Virus record (IMG/VR): IMGVR_UViG_3300025168_000829
Coordinates: 1-21,010 of that record
Strand: one strand, 5' to 3'
Length of the DNA: 21,010 bases
Origin: a virus
Shown: positions 5,133 to 20,681 of the stretch, in pieces
Layout: each line of letters starts with the position of its first letter
Numbering within the stretch: position 1 is the stretch's first letter
The notes under the pieces: generated by a model
What the model was told of the DNA's origin: nothing
What the model saw: the letters and a program-made list of their open reading frames with translations, nothing else
Database searches by the model: none
Made by a program: the position numbers and the translations under genes

Positions 5133-5583
5133 ACGCGCCATCATGCTGCGGGTGCAGGACCAGATCCAGAACTGCAATGGTTCCGGCTCGTATACCTACG
5201 ACCTCAGCGGATCGGACCAGGTATGCATAGGAGAGAGTTTCGCGCCTACCCGGGTGCCTGGGGTCTATATTTTTGCGAACGGCGTCACAACGGCACAGAC
5301 AGCCGGTAGAACGGTGCTGACGCGCTATGACAGAGAGATGAAGATACAGATCGAGGCGTGGGTTGGTGCTACCAGCGCCGCGCCAGGGATCGCGCTGCTC
5401 GATGCTATGGACTTACAGGATGACATCATGCGTGCGCTTGAGTCTGACAGGTCGCTCGACGGCAACGCGCGAGACGTAGAGATTGAGGCCACAGCTTACG
5501 ACGGCGCGGAGATGGATCGCCCTGGTATGGGCATGGCTGTCCTGATACTTACTGTCCGATACACTGAGACGGCGGGGGCTTGA
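5122..5583 (+). CDS. Probable tail terminator / tail completion protein
   Basis: About 150 residues, predicted mixed alpha/beta: an N-terminal helix, a region with RVPGVYIFANG, a YDREMKIQIEAWVG strand, a helix (ALLDAMDLQDDIMRALES) and a C-terminal strand VLILTVRYTET. This order, and the position after the gp10-like gene and before the tail tube, fit the tail terminator (gpU / DUF3168-like) class that caps the tail at the head-proximal end. There is no diagnostic motif, so the role rests mainly on context. The start could be TTG 5122, with AAGGA at 5108-5112 and overlapping the preceding stop, or ATG 5143. I chose 5122 because of its ribosome site. Confidence 0.68.
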   Translation: MGAERAIMLRVQDQIQNCNGSGSYTYDLSGSDQVCIGESFAPTRVPGVYIFANGVTTAQTAGRTVLTRYDREMKIQIEAWVGATSAAPGIALLDAMDLQDDIMRALESDRSLDGNARDVEIEATAYDGAEMDRPGMGMAVLILTVRYTETAGA

Positions 5584-6360
5584 ATGAGTTGGTACGATAG
5601 CGACTGGACGCACCGAGCGCCGATCCTGATTGACAATCACTCAGGCGCCTCGACCATTGACGTGACCGCTACGGTGCCTGGTGACTTCACCCGCTTCTGG
5701 GAGAACGTCGACGGAGCCAACGGCGGCGCCGATATCCGCGTCACTGACGCAGACGGACAGACGCTGCTGACCTTCGACGTGGCCAGCTTCAACGCCACCA
5801 CCCGGACAGCTACAATCGAGATCGACAACCTGTCAGCAAGCAGCACCACATCAGCCATCGTGGCCTGGTTGTACTGGGGAGCCAGCAGCAAGTCCACAGC
5901 GGTCACAGCCTTCAGCCCTCAGAACCCCAAGACCGGGTACATCGAGATCGGCGCACCTGGCAGCGGCTCGCAGCGGATGGTCAAGTGCGGACCTGAGACA
6001 CCAGGCGCAACCAACCCACGCGCCGAGATCCACAAAGCATCAGGCGACCGCATTCATCTGTGGTGGGATCTCACCGGCGTGCTTGCCAAGCGCAGCGTTC
6101 CAAGCCAGAACAGCAGAGCGCTCGACGAGATCGCAAGCGTGACCTATGACCTGCAATACGGCACCAACGGCACCTCAGATTCTGCGATGGTGGTGCTGGG
6201 TGAGCTTCGCATGATCGGCCCTGCCTACGTTCGCACGACGGTGCGCGCTGGTAACAGTGGGACGAACTACACGGCTGTACTTGATGTGACGCTAACCAGC
6301 GGTCGCATCCTTGACTTTAGAGCAACTATTCGCGTCCAAGACGTAATCCAACCAAGCTAA
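5584..6360 (+). CDS. DUF2341-like beta-sandwich protein inserted in the tail module
   Basis: A 258-residue protein whose N-terminal ~110 residues resemble DUF2341. They begin with W-x-x-R-x-P-I-x-I-D-N (WTHRAPILIDN) and contain the FWENVDGANGGADIRVTDADG block, the LLTFDVASFN strand and an IVAWLYWGASS strand. In cellular proteins this domain occurs with lectin-like or filamin-like sandwiches, and a carbohydrate- or surface-binding role is plausible. The C-terminal half is beta-rich (HLWWDLTGVL, SAMVVLGELRM, DFRATIRVQDV) and not recognised. It starts directly after the previous TGA (TGA ATG) and ends 13 bases before the tail tube gene. Its expression with tail genes suggests a virion protein, perhaps a tail-tube or neck decoration; that is inference. 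Confidence 0.75.
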   Translation: MSWYDSDWTHRAPILIDNHSGASTIDVTATVPGDFTRFWENVDGANGGADIRVTDADGQTLLTFDVASFNATTRTATIEIDNLSASSTTSAIVAWLYWGASSKSTAVTAFSPQNPKTGYIEIGAPGSGSQRMVKCGPETPGATNPRAEIHKASGDRIHLWWDLTGVLAKRSVPSQNSRALDEIASVTYDLQYGTNGTSDSAMVVLGELRMIGPAYVRTTVRAGNSGTNYTAVLDVTLTSGRILDFRATIRVQDVIQPS

Positions 6361-6373
6361 ACGGAGCCCTATC

Positions 6374-7315
6374 ATGGCATCAATCTATCACGGCAGAGGG
6401 GCGGCCCTCGGCTTCGGCAAAGAATCAACATGGGGCACAGCAGTGTCGCGCGTCAACTGGCGTCCAGCCATCAGCAGCGCGCTCACACGCACTATCGAAA
6501 AGGTGCCACGGCCCAACCTGCGCGTCGGCTCGGCTGGCGCTATGCGTCGATCCAGGTACGTCCAGACCGATCTGGCCGGTGGATCATTCAGCGTAGAGGC
6601 TACATACGAAAACGTAGGTATGCTTCTCGAAGGCATCATGGGCACTTCAGCGACTACGGGCTCAGGGCCGTATACACATACCTACACGTTCGCCGACGAT
6701 CTCCAGACTGGTCTGACCATTGAGAACGTCCGAGGCACAGGCACCAGCGAGGTCTTCGAGGGTTGCCGTGTATCGACAGCCAGCCTGGCTGTGGCTGCCG
6801 GTGGTGTCCTCAGCATAGACGCTGAGGTCATCGCACAGACATCCTCAGCGCGTGGCTCGGCTCCAACGCCCAGCTTCGGCGCTGGTGACACTCCGGTGCT
6901 CCACAGTCACGCTGGTCAGCTTAGCTTCAACAGCGTCAACTATGACCTCGTTGATCTGAACCTGACGATCAACAACGCACTGGCGACCCGTATGCACCTC
7001 GGATCAGCAGCGACCAAGCAGCCACTCCGCGCGGACTTCCAGTCTGTCGAGCTTGCTGTCACCGTCGAGGTTGATGACGCACTGTACAGCGCGTTCATTG
7101 CAGACACTGAGTCTGACATCGCTATCGTCTTCACCGCTGGGTCCAAGACCTTTACCATCAACGTCCACAACGCCTACATCAGCCAAGCGTCTGACCCTGT
7201 GAGTGACGGCAACGTCATCCAGCAGTCAATCACGTTCATTGGCCAGAGCGACGGCACGGACGAAGGTTGCAGCATCGTTGTGGTCAACACGAACAGCGGC
7301 GCGACAGGCGGCTGA
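6374..7315 (+). CDS. Major tail tube protein
   Basis: A 313-residue protein with the pattern of the siphovirus tail tube family. It has an N-terminal ALGFGKESTWGTA motif ('G.E..yGt' type), then RSRYVQTDLAGGSFSVEATYENVGMLLEGIMG, given here as two motifs: the GGSFSVEATYEN strand and the helix GMLLEGIMG. Next come alternating strands ending in SQASDPVSDGNVIQQSITFIG, which resembles the conserved final strands of tube subunits. Hexameric rings of such a protein would stack around the tape measure protein. A GGAG ribosome site precedes the ATG. The following genes are the tail chaperones and tape measure, the canonical order. Confidence 0.85.
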   Translation: MASIYHGRGAALGFGKESTWGTAVSRVNWRPAISSALTRTIEKVPRPNLRVGSAGAMRRSRYVQTDLAGGSFSVEATYENVGMLLEGIMGTSATTGSGPYTHTYTFADDLQTGLTIENVRGTGTSEVFEGCRVSTASLAVAAGGVLSIDAEVIAQTSSARGSAPTPSFGAGDTPVLHSHAGQLSFNSVNYDLVDLNLTINNALATRMHLGSAATKQPLRADFQSVELAVTVEVDDALYSAFIADTESDIAIVFTAGSKTFTINVHNAYISQASDPVSDGNVIQQSITFIGQSDGTDEGCSIVVVNTNSGATGG

Positions 7316-18346: not shown

Positions 18347-18385
18347 CGCCTCGTCTCATGCCCTCTGCTGAGTCGGGGCGTTTTT
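18347..18385 (+). terminator. Intrinsic terminator of the late operon
   Basis: CGCCTCG (18347-18353) pairs with CGGGGCG (18374-18380) with one G-U pair. After a symmetric T-T mismatch, CTCA (18355-18358) pairs with TGAG (18369-18372), leaving a 10-base loop. TTTTT follows immediately (18381-18385). It lies 38 bases after the last lysis-cassette stop and should end late transcription. Confidence 0.85.
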
Positions 18386-18453: not shown

Positions 18454-18484
18454 TTCCCCCACGGCTATAATCCTGGATTATAAA
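18454..18484 (+). promoter_or_regulatory. Probable promoter of the second operon
   Basis: Two -10-like boxes are present: TATAAT (18466-18471) and TATAAA (18479-18484). The second sits in a CTGGAnTATAAA context shared with the promoter near 20224 and is 3 bases from the conserved leader. No good -35 is seen; TTCCCC at 18454-18459 aligns with the TTCACA of the other promoter but with 19-base spacing. An activator or a phage-modified polymerase is possible. Confidence 0.55.
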
Positions 18485-18487
18485 GGG

Positions 18488-18526
18488 GTCAGGCAATCAA
18501 GCCACACACCAAGGACGAACAAAATG
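18488..18526 (+). repeat. Leader copy 1 (promoter-proximal type)
   Basis: The 39 bases from GTCAGGCAATCAAGCC through ACACACC to AAGGACGAACAAAATG match leader copy 3 at 37 of 39 positions. GGC-AATCAA-GCC can form a small hairpin. Then come 7 A/C bases, the AAGGA ribosome site and an 8-base spacer to the start codon. It is probably the complete 5' UTR of the first transcript. Confidence 0.85.
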
Positions 18527-18718
18527 AACGCAGCAATCGAAGGTCAAAACGGTAGCATCATGCTTTTCTCATTCGAGCACCAAGCACGAGCAGAGCGCGC
18601 CAGAATGGTCGCCGAACAGCCACCAGGAGACACGACCAAAGTGACAGTGCAACCAACGACGGTGCGTGCTGGCGGTGTGATCTCGAAGCTATGGACTGTG
18701 ACTATTCGCTGGGCATAG
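18524..18718 (+). CDS. Hypothetical 64-residue early protein
   Basis: First gene of the second operon, started by leader copy 1 with AAGGA eight bases before ATG. The product has a short Asn/Gly N-terminus, a strand-like IMLFSFEH, a basic helix (QARAERARMVAEQ) and two C-terminal strands (TKVTVQPTTVRAG, KLWTVTIRWA). I recognise no family. Strong promoter-proximal placement and a good ribosome site suggest high early expression, as for small host-takeover proteins; that is inference. The stop is exactly 8 bases before the GGCCCC hairpin of the next leader. Confidence 0.75.
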   Translation: MNAAIEGQNGSIMLFSFEHQARAERARMVAEQPPGDTTKVTVQPTTVRAGGVISKLWTVTIRWA

Positions 18719-18726
18719 CCCTCACC

Positions 18727-18765
18727 GGCCCCCACGGGGGCCACAACCTAAGGACGAACAACATG
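18727..18765 (+). repeat. Leader copy 2 (intercistronic hairpin type)
   Basis: GGCCCC (18727-18732), CACG loop, GGGGCC (18737-18742), then ACAACCT and AAGGACGAACAACATG. The 39 bases match leader copy 4 at 37 positions. There is no T-run, so it does not look like a terminator. Confidence 0.88.
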
Positions 18766-19206
18766 AGCACTCAAGCAATCAACAGATTCAGAGCAATAAA
18801 CGCAAACCCAAACCGCACCAAGCGGGCCGAGGCGTTCCTCAAAAACAAGCGGATAAGCATGGGTGGGGGCTACGTCTGCGACGTTACCTGCGGCGAATGT
18901 AATAATACTGCTGCTGTAGCATTTGGAGGCTGGGACGCTATCGCATGTTCACAATGCGGCGCGGAGATGTACAGGCACGAAGCGATACCAGAGATCGATT
19001 GCTACTTCCGGCTCTACGCGGCTGGAGCTTGCGACAAATGGCACGCATTTGCTCAGATCTTTGCATACATCGATTCAAGCCGGGTCACGCTTAAGCAAGC
19101 TGCGAAGATCGGGACAGAGTACTGGGTACCGGAGTCTGCAACATACGAGATGCGCCAGCGATTCAACGCGCTTGATGCCGCTGGCAAAGATGCGGTGACG
19201 TCATGA
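18763..19206 (+). CDS. Zinc-ribbon-like early protein
   Basis: A 147-residue protein. A basic N-terminal helix (NPNRTKRAEAFLKNKR) is followed by a Cys cluster: Cys39, then CGEC (43-46), and CSQC (62-65) after a 15-residue spacer. This is the usual pair of knuckles of a zinc ribbon. The C-terminal part is helical with many aromatic residues (CYFRLYAAGACDKWHAFAQI, TEYWVPESATYEMRQRF). It may bind nucleic acid or a host protein; no family is recognised. The start at 18763 is fixed by the conserved leader and AAGGA site. The frame is open to 18691, but that would cross the hairpin. It overlaps the next gene by ATGA. Confidence 0.78.
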   Translation: MSTQAINRFRAINANPNRTKRAEAFLKNKRISMGGGYVCDVTCGECNNTAAVAFGGWDAIACSQCGAEMYRHEAIPEIDCYFRLYAAGACDKWHAFAQIFAYIDSSRVTLKQAAKIGTEYWVPESATYEMRQRFNALDAAGKDAVTS

Positions 19207-19544
19207 AGTTCAAAGCTACAGTCACCTTCCCAGGCGATCCGGGTGAGATGCTGGGCCTAGATATCAACGCGCCCGATGTACCTGAGTGTGAAGCACTTGA
19301 CAGATGGTTGTACGGCCACAGCGCTGGCACCACCCGGTCGAAGACAACGCTGCATCTGTTCGACCACGGAAGTCAGGATGACGCGCTGTGTGGCTCATAT
19401 ACGCCTGGTCAGTTCACTAGCGTGAGGTTGAGCTATGACGGCTTTGGAGGAAACCCAAATGCAGCGTCTCACTTTGTTACGGCAGGACAGAAATACAAGG
19501 TCTGCCTGAAGTGCCGCAAGATAGCCGAAGGACGTGAAGCATGA
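19203..19544 (+). CDS. Small Cys-motif protein (LCG ... CxKC type)
   Basis: A 113-residue protein beginning in an ATGA overlap. The N-terminal half is beta-like (FKATVTFPGDPGEMLGLDIN) with a DRWLYGHSAG segment. The C-terminal half has ALCG (Cys63) and, after about 37 residues, KVCLKC (Cys101, Cys104) near the end. The pattern '(H/T)-LCG ... V-x-C-x-x-C-x-K' is a common probable zinc-binding module in small phage and actinobacterial proteins, with no set function. His90 could be a fourth ligand. It is coupled to its neighbours on both sides by 4-base overlaps. Confidence 0.75.
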   Translation: MKFKATVTFPGDPGEMLGLDINAPDVPECEALDRWLYGHSAGTTRSKTTLHLFDHGSQDDALCGSYTPGQFTSVRLSYDGFGGNPNAASHFVTAGQKYKVCLKCRKIAEGREA

Positions 19545-19609
19545 CCGCCACTGATATCCTCGGCGCTGTGATCTGGACCGTCATCATGATTGCGATGGTG
19601 GCGGCATGA
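19541..19609 (+). CDS. 22-residue single-TM micropeptide
   Basis: ATG at 19541 lies in an ATGA overlap with the previous stop, and its own TGA (19607-19609) overlaps the next ATG in the same way. The peptide, MTATDILGAVIWTVIMIAMV then AA, is one hydrophobic helix long enough to span a membrane, with a short polar N-terminus. AAGGA at 19527-19531 is 9 bases upstream. Without it, a 61-base gap would break an otherwise fully coupled gene row. It could be an inhibitor or modifier of a host membrane protein, but nothing in the sequence shows a target. Confidence 0.62.
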   Translation: MTATDILGAVIWTVIMIAMVAA

Positions 19610-19914
19610 TTGGCGACAACGAGCACACCAAGAAGCTGGACAAGTACGACCAGGAGCGCGCCAAGCTCGAGCCCAAGGCCAAGGGCCTGCCACGGCACTG
19701 GCCGAAGATAGAGGTGCCCCCACGGCCCACCATCAGGCAACAGTTGCACGAGCGGGTTCTGCTCATGCGAGAGTCACTGGCATTCAGCCAGCGATGCCTG
19801 GACGCACAGAACGAGCGGTACCCTGAGTTCATTGACCACCAGTGGATTGCTGAGATACAGAAGGGTCACCGAGAACTCAAACAAGCGGAGCGAGAGCTTG
19901 ATGCCATTGTATGA
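19606..19914 (+). CDS. Hypothetical charged helical protein
   Basis: A 102-residue protein rich in Lys, Glu, Arg and Gln, with predicted helices at 5-25 (EHTKKLDKYDQERAKLEPKA) and 43-70 (IRQQLHERVLLMRESLAFSQ), and a C-terminal helix QKGHRELKQAERELDAI. A Pro-rich segment (HWPKIEVPPRP) separates the first two. There is no Cys motif or membrane segment and no recognised family; an all-helical bundle or oligomer is likely. It starts in an ATGA overlap with the micropeptide, preceded by GGTGG, and its end overlaps the FmdB-like gene by 14 bases. Confidence 0.72.
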   Translation: MIGDNEHTKKLDKYDQERAKLEPKAKGLPRHWPKIEVPPRPTIRQQLHERVLLMRESLAFSQRCLDAQNERYPEFIDHQWIAEIQKGHRELKQAERELDAIV

Positions 19915-20095
19915 ATACCGATGTTCGGAGTGTGCCACCCAGGTGGAGCAACTCCAGAAGCACGACGATCCAGCACCAACGTGCCAGAAGTGCGCCGACA
20001 CCGTCAACAAGCTGGTGAGGATGACCAAGCAGGTAAGCCGCACCAGCTTCCGCTTGGAGGGCGGCGGCTGGGCGCGCGACGGCTACAAAGGGTAA
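19901..20095 (+). CDS. FmdB-family zinc-ribbon protein
   Basis: A 64-residue protein with the FmdB-type N-terminus MPLYEYRCSECATQVEQLQK: Y-E-Y-x-C-x-x-C (Cys8, Cys11), then a spacer and C-Q-K-C (Cys28, Cys31). It closes with SFRLEGGGWARDGY, matching the 'F.L.G.GW....Y' end seen in many family members. FmdB proteins are small zinc ribbons of mostly unknown role (named from putative regulators of formamidase) and are common in phages and bacteria. The start at 19901 overlaps the previous gene by 14 bases, with GGAG upstream; the longer in-frame ATG at 19832 is inside that gene. It is the last gene before a probable terminator. Confidence 0.86.
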   Translation: MPLYEYRCSECATQVEQLQKHDDPAPTCQKCADTVNKLVRMTKQVSRTSFRLEGGGWARDGYKG

Positions 20096-20101
20096 AGGGA
20101 C

Positions 20102-20143
20102 GGCACAGCATACGGGTGATGGGGATCAACTGAACGCTGTGCC
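20102..20143 (+). repeat. 8-bp inverted repeat after the FmdB-like gene
   Basis: GGCACAGC (20102-20109) and GCTGTGCC (20136-20143) are perfect complements separated by 26 bases. It starts 6 bases after the stop codon and has no T-run of its own; it may protect the 3' end or pair with the following terminator region. Confidence 0.6.
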
Positions 20144-20190
20144 AAGCTCCGGCGGCGCGGTGTCGTCGGGGCTTATCTTCATCTTTCTTT
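20144..20190 (+). terminator. Probable intrinsic terminator
   Basis: AAGCTCCG (20144-20151) pairs with CGGGGCTT (20167-20174) with one G-U pair around a 15-base loop, followed by the T-rich ATCTTCATCTTTCTTT. The T-tract is interrupted, so termination may be partial. Layout and sequence (CGGGGC, then T-rich, then ATCTTTCT) mirror the late terminator region. Confidence 0.5.
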
Positions 20191-20200
20191 GAGAATATAC

Positions 20201-20229
20201 TTCACAGCGATATCGCGCTGGAGTATAAA
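20201..20229 (+). promoter_or_regulatory. Sigma70-like promoter
   Basis: TTCACA (20201-20206), a 17-base spacer and TATAAA (20224-20229). Transcription would begin near 20236, the first base of the conserved leader. It shares CTGGAnTATAAA with the promoter at 18454-18484. Confidence 0.7.
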
Positions 20230-20235
20230 CGAAGT

Positions 20236-20274
20236 GTCAGGCAATCAAGCCAAACACCAAGGACGAACAACATG
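20236..20274 (+). repeat. Leader copy 3 (promoter-proximal type)
   Basis: GTCAGGCAATCAAGCC, then AAACACC, then AAGGACGAACAACATG; 37 of 39 bases match leader copy 1. The leader starts at the predicted +1, so it should be the whole 5' UTR of this transcript. Confidence 0.87.
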
Positions 20275-20634
20275 AACATCACGACAGCAAAACAGACAGC
20301 GCGCGAAACCTTTGCCAAGTTCTTCAACCCAGCCATGCGGCTCGAGCACGGCTGTGACACGCTACAAATCGACCCAGGCGACGAACTGCGCGAGGAGTGC
20401 TCGACGCTGCCGCGCGGCGCTCACCTCATCGCTGCAAGTCGCGTCAGCGTTCACGCCGACGATCGTCACCTTTGGGTCTTCTTGTGCACCTTAGAGACTT
20501 CTGACGGTGTCGAGTTCGTGACTTGGCGCGCTAACGATGGCCGCACCGGAGACACAGCAGGGTGCTATCTTCGGAATGATTACGATACAGCCGATCAAGC
20601 CGTAGCGGGTTTCCACGCACGCGCACGGCGCTAA
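20272..20634 (+). CDS. Hypothetical 120-residue early protein
   Basis: The product begins with a basic helix (TAKQTARETFAKFFNPA), continues with a mixed alpha/beta body containing four Cys spread without a CxxC pair, strands HLIAASRVSVHADDRHLWVF and GVEFVTWRAND, and ends in a short basic helix (AVAGFHARARR). I do not recognise a family. It sits directly behind a sigma70-like promoter and leader copy 3, and its stop is exactly 8 bases before the next hairpin leader, as for the gene at 18524. The two proteins show no visible similarity. Confidence 0.75.
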   Translation: MNITTAKQTARETFAKFFNPAMRLEHGCDTLQIDPGDELREECSTLPRGAHLIAASRVSVHADDRHLWVFLCTLETSDGVEFVTWRANDGRTGDTAGCYLRNDYDTADQAVAGFHARARR

Positions 20635-20642
20635 CCACCAAC

Positions 20643-20681
20643 GGCCCCTACGGGGGCCACAACCCAAGGACGAACAACATG
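20643..20681 (+). repeat. Leader copy 4 (intercistronic hairpin type)
   Basis: GGCCCC (20643-20648), TACG loop, GGGGCC (20653-20658), then ACAACCC and AAGGACGAACAACATG. In RNA this is a C(UACG)G tetraloop, an exceptionally stable class. It matches leader copy 2 at 37 of 39 bases and has no T-run. Confidence 0.9.

Follow-up and report, generated by a model that had tools for sequence, protein, structure and literature searches.

The window analysed here is the complete IMG/VR record IMGVR_UViG_3300025168_000829, a linear phage fragment of 21,010 bases. Its tailed-phage genes (capsid, tape measure, endolysin) are followed by a region in which four copies of a 39-nucleotide (nt) leader with a conserved ribosome-site box precede unrelated non-structural genes (18.5-20.7 kb, after the endolysin gene; all on the plus strand).

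Four leaders of two classes

Direct reading of the window reproduces exactly the four copies of the original prediction (18,488-18,526, 18,727-18,765, 20,236-20,274 and 20,643-20,681), together with their shared anatomy: a hairpin whose 3' arm ends in GCC, then seven A/C-rich linker bases, AAGGACGAACAA, a single free base and the ATG. The proposed division into two classes, copies 1 and 3 (class 1) and copies 2 and 4 (class 2), is likewise upheld by direct comparison, with 37/39 identity within each. The 16-nt Shine-Dalgarno (SD) box occurs exactly four times in the window: as AAGGACGAACAA-A-ATG in copy 1 (18,511-18,526), at the start of a 64-amino-acid (aa) open reading frame (ORF); in copy 2 (18,750-18,765), at the start of a 147-aa ORF; as AAGGACGAACAA-C-ATG in copy 3 (20,259-20,274), at the start of a 120-aa ORF; and in copy 4 (20,666-20,681), at the start of a 63-aa ORF. 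With up to three mismatches allowed, five matches were found, against a mean of 0.46 in shuffled sequences, and none of 100 shuffles reached five.

Judged from the collections searched, the SD part AAGGACGAACAA-N-ATG occurs in this phage alone. The exact box was found in 81 stretches of viral contigs, which is about the chance number by our own estimate, with GCC at the right distance in none, and it is missing from all 30 whole records of capsid relatives (L086-L165). The search pattern proposed earlier, GCC-N7-AAGGACGAACAA-N-ATG, matched no other phage, whereas the hairpins searched alone do match. That repeated leaders stand upstream of unrelated proteins was supported, and their hairpins occupy matching positions in other phages; the idea of a single four-copy stem-loop family was not, as the window combines two unrelated hairpins, differing in position, with one phage-specific SD box.

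Copies 1 and 3 sit downstream of promoter-like sequences, copies 2 and 4 start 8 nt past stop codons (at 18,718 and 20,634, respectively), and terminator-like structures lie ahead of both promoter-like sequences. From this placement of the two classes we infer that a unit consisting of terminator-like structure, promoter, class 1 leader, gene, class 2 leader and gene occurs twice. The first unit would open with a terminator-like hairpin with a T run (18,363-18,378), located after the structural and lysis genes, followed by a sigma70-like -10 box TATAAA (18,479-18,484, from reading of the sequence), 5 nt past which class 1 begins with CAGG at 18,490. Its terminator-like end would consist of two strong stems (20,102-20,174; -44 kcal/mol, z -4.95, by folding) and a U-rich stretch. 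In the second unit the promoter-like sequence TTCACA-17-TATAAA (20,201-20,229), which contains an internal inverted repeat, ends 8 nt before the CAGG of class 1 at 20,238.

The 147-aa ORF (18,763-19,206) contains two CxxC pairs with weak zinc-ribbon matches, and no relative of it was found in viral contigs. A distant capsid relative (G030) has a four-copy leader of its own, AAGGAG[CT]AACAAAATG (L188-L191; positions 19986, 22744, 25304 and 27602), three copies of which sit downstream of a similar A/C-rich, promoter-like stretch.

The class 1 element behind promoter-like sequences

The class 1 element CAGGCAATCAAGCC (18,490-18,503 in copy 1 and 20,238-20,251 in copy 3; 5'-GUCAGGCAAUCAAGCC in RNA letters) contains the hairpin GGC-AATCAA-GCC. 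The pattern CAGGCAATCAAGCC-N1-12-GG-N5-10-ATG was found in 89 stretches of viral contigs, corresponding to 51-52 distinct leaders; a leader was counted as distinct when its flanks were at most 60% identical to others, a simple identity cut that alone handles redundancy in a collection where several records are fragmentary. Since 17 of 61 distinct places fall in long open frames, where some leaders are probably chance coding matches, about 40 of the roughly 50 are probably genuine. The longer 16-mer GTCAGGCAATCAAGCC is present in 22 viral contigs, close to what chance alone would give by our own estimate, and in 13 of these it lies directly ahead of an SD box and ATG, in front of different genes.

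Two controls were searched in the same frame. The reversed motif gave 13 matches, which fall into 2 distinct kinds; for the stem-swapped motif there were 83, falling into 25 distinct kinds and lying mostly in long reading frames (terminase, structural genes), with one leader-like case only (L392). Promoter-linked places numbered 17 for class 1 and zero for either control. A sigma70 score of at least 7 was obtained upstream of 25/52 distinct class 1 leaders, against 11% of shuffled upstreams, and the -10 box ends 5-6 nt ahead of CAGG in 26/52, against about 12% by shuffling. This preferred place, 5-6 nt past the -10 box, is presumed to be the 5' end of the mRNA. Outside the -10 and SD regions the flanks of the distinct leaders hold little information. 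Among the genes downstream are some for annealing proteins (Sak-like, RecT-like), one for an HNH endonuclease and others for proteins of unknown function; the carriers include the isolate Pseudomonas phage PPSC2 (Otagovirus, NC_073678; class 1 at about 59.51 kb) and a contig on which a class 1 leader (L230) is found together with L127, which is distantly related to the window through its capsid. A search for isolates related to L228, L250 and L170 found none.

In the marine phage L172 (reverse strand, 5330-7070) a cassette of promoter, class 1 leader and gene is present three times; two of the cassettes directly follow T-tailed, terminator-like hairpins and have nearly identical promoters. L172 was also the sole candidate outside the window for class 1 and class 2 occurring together, and was rejected when its presumed class 2 hairpin turned out to be a T-tailed terminator. 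Several class 1 promoters carry inverted repeats within their spacer (window 20,196-20,227; L167, L168, L176 and L216), which look operator-like and differ in sequence from phage to phage.

As the contigs were collected by the exact 14-mer, the conservation of class 1 is partly a product of the search, and its true variability is underestimated. Further copies in the carriers retain GGC and GCC while loop bases change; hardly any of these natural variants departs from GGC/GCC or from the second loop base, and the remaining loop bases vary. The refuting condition set earlier, stems that vary without compensation, gave a mixed outcome: in a small, hand-collected and partly related set of 15 variants, a few double changes occur at the two outer pairs (three from A-U to G-C, two from G-C to C-G), but the GGC/GCC core is nearly invariant and the stem-swapped version is nearly missing from leaders.

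In Pseudomonas Otagovirus phages, several promoters have different hairpins behind them, whose loops are A-rich or of the GNRA type (GAGGC-GAACAA-GCCTC, AAGGC-AAAAC-GCCTT, GCC-GAAA-GGC and GGCC-AACAAC-GGCC), and folding of 64 promoter leaders gave a z below -1.5 for 13. Genomes of this type (L198, L210, L225, L247, L248, L336 and L337) contain many promoters of the form TTGAC-N-TGTAGAAT, with a well-folding hairpin after about a fifth and an unstructured A/C-rich leader after the rest. Taken together, the retained GGC/GCC with changing loops, the outer double changes and the alternative Otagovirus hairpins suggest that structure and sequence may both matter for class 1.

A role of sequence is central to another explanation, under which transcripts of many unrelated phages from several host groups would carry CAGGCAATCAAGCC at their very 5' end as a cis-acting RNA element not described before. 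One hypothetical conserved partner (RNA polymerase, the ribosome, a factor of RNA decay, or a protein that many phages encode) would recognise GGC-AAU(CAA)-GCC there and favour phage messages. We regard this as possible but rather doubtful. It would account for an exact 14-mer common to about 50 distinct leaders (some 40 of them likely genuine) with dissimilar flanks, for the near-fixed GGC/GCC and second loop base, for the confinement of the stem-swapped variant with the same loop to coding sequence, save L392, and for the two places only that the reversed control yields. Against it speak the other hairpins at other promoters of the same phages, the selection of contigs by the exact 14-mer, which understates how far the element varies, and cellular genomes, where a similar but slightly stricter pattern gave 40 matches, about the chance number by our own estimate, one of them with a matching promoter. 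Pairing of class 1 with E. coli 16S, 23S or 5S rRNA, which would have provided such a partner, was rejected, as complementarity was not above that of shuffles.

The preferred spacing to the -10 box and the inverted repeats in several spacers would also fit an action of class 1 as DNA, either as an initially transcribed sequence tuning promoter escape or pausing, or as an operator or phage-regulator site around +1. This is improbable in our judgement: class 1 is not a perfect dyad, it lies on the sense strand adjoining SD boxes, and its variants retain the GGC/GCC pairing with double changes outside it.

Class 1 has no match among named families: in a search with the Rfam 15 covariance models no family was matched, the sole hit lying elsewhere at 19.5 bits, far under the cut-off of 45. 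In the papers searched its core GGCAATCAAGCC occurs only in work on subjects other than phages, the RNA form CAAUCAAGCC was not found, and among the matches listed for CAATCAAGCC there is no phage-leader paper by title. For the repeated ribosome-site box a close named precedent exists (see below).

The intergenic class 2 hairpin

Class 2 has the consensus GGCCCC-YACG-GGGGCC, with a 6-bp stem of -13.8 kcal/mol (leader z -1.86 and -2.21). Copy 2 reads GGCCCC-CACG-GGGGCC (18,727-18,742) and copy 4 GGCCCC-TACG-GGGGCC, with a UNCG tetraloop (20,643-20,658). The sequence GGCCCCYACGGGGGCC ahead of AGG and ATG was found in 55 viral stretches, where about one is expected by chance (own estimate). Among 31 distinct leaders, a stop codon lies within 40 nt in 29 and within 6-14 nt in 25, and none has a sigma70 score of 7. 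A leader on a 9.4-kb contig (L466, 495-534), GGCCCCCACGGGGGCCACAACCGAGGACGAAACAACATG, is near-identical to copy 2 of the window, with the SD box nearly included. Neighbouring gaps of class 2 carriers contain other tetraloops on different stems (UUCG seven times, CUCG four, UCCG three, GCAA two and GAAA one), and the isolate Klebsiella phage IME279 has several such super-stable hairpins within one genome; the exchange of loops and stems indicates that for class 2 it is the structure that counts. By its sequence and position class 2 is a member of the known intercistronic UNCG hairpins: copy 4 (UACG) presents C(UNCG)G on a stable stem, copy 2 (CACG) is a near variant, and both positions are intergenic.

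These results bear on a further account of the four copies, namely recent duplications or recombination linkers devoid of a role. The SD box, identical in 4/4 copies and with a spacing found nowhere else, would fit such an origin. Against it, unrelated phages combine the two hairpins with linkers of their own and keep each hairpin to its characteristic place, and the class 2 stem and loop change while a super-stable hairpin persists. We give this account little credence.

Proposed function and known systems

The explanation that we favour, and hold to be just probable, is protection of mRNA ends by the leaders, which would also leave the ribosome-binding site accessible. Each copy would constitute a compact expression leader made of a hairpin, a short unstructured A/C-rich linker, the SD box and the start codon. 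The promoter hairpin, class 1, would be situated at or a few nt from the transcript 5' end and cap this primary end; the intergenic hairpin, class 2, with its super-stable tetraloop just past the upstream stop codon, would cap the 3' and 5' ends that arise from intergenic cleavage. By analogy with known stabilising stem-loops, capping may slow 5'-end-dependent and exonucleolytic decay, while the hairpin could insulate the SD box against pairing with upstream RNA and the A/C-rich linker would leave it open. Since dozens of phages without evident relationship place these hairpins at the two corresponding sites, they may have a common means of protecting their messages or making them accessible.

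Several points weigh against this explanation. With just 3 bp (GGC/GCC; -3.0 kcal/mol) the stem of class 1 is weak, and the folding of its leaders in the window does not surpass that of shuffled sequences (z -0.40 and -1.10). Copy 1 is preceded by no good -35 box, and a scan with a strict promoter definition returned no promoter in the leader region, so that the promoters of the window are reasoned, not proven. Most Otagovirus promoter leaders are without a hairpin (mean z -0.37), and for the Otagovirus class 1 copies the presumed -10 box ends merely 1 nt ahead of CAGG, which would place the start site within the motif. Finally, if structure were all that mattered, the exact recurrence of the 14-mer and the near absence of its stem-swapped form from leaders would go unexplained.

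If class 1 works as proposed, it would be a 14-nt tag marking transcript 5' ends in phages that otherwise share little; it could then help to predict transcription units of phages from metagenomic data, and would offer a very small module with which mRNAs might be stabilised or insulated. Should a partner read it, it would represent a common control point for unrelated phages.

Three known systems were compared with the leaders. Stem-loops at the 5' terminus stabilise the ompA and papA mRNAs (work of Emory, Bouvet and Belasco, as cited in PMC3997798); a further precedent for mRNA stabilisation by a 5' stem-loop is the leader of T4 gene 32 (as cited in PMC8948821). Class 1 would resemble them in a hairpin presumed, from its gap to the -10 box, to lie near the transcript 5' end with an open ribosome site next to it, but differs in its 3-bp core and its almost fixed sequence across unrelated phages.

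Closer to the leader as a whole are the start-associated sequences (SAS) that Cluster K mycobacteriophages carry, in part in an extended form (ESAS) with an upstream inverted repeat. Described as of unknown function, they have a 13-bp ribosome-site consensus GGGATAGGAGCCC and a 17-bp imperfect inverted repeat before about half of the boxes (PMC3203893); parallels to them were reported in Microbacterium cluster EF phages (PMC7302621). In both systems, ribosome-site repeats of unusual conservation precede non-structural genes that are not related to each other, and an inverted repeat can lie immediately upstream. However, the box of the window is AAGGACGAACAA instead of GGGATAGGAGCCC, and hairpins of 3 and 6 bp precede every copy, in contrast to a 17-bp repeat at about half. 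The leader thus appears to work like SAS/ESAS without being a member. In addition, ESAS are confined to a phage cluster, whereas the window hairpins span unrelated phages, sorted by promoter versus intercistronic position.

Class 2, lastly, corresponds to the CUUCGG/UNCG super-stable tetraloop hairpins of T4 and other phages, which are mainly intergenic according to the account in PMC8948821, citing Tuerk 1988. It shares with them the super-stable tetraloop, C(UACG)G in copy 4, and the intergenic position; it differs in lying 8 nt past a stop codon and directly ahead of an SD box, and in the loop CACG of copy 2. The class 2 result extends these known intercistronic hairpins to a fixed arrangement of stop codon, hairpin and SD box.

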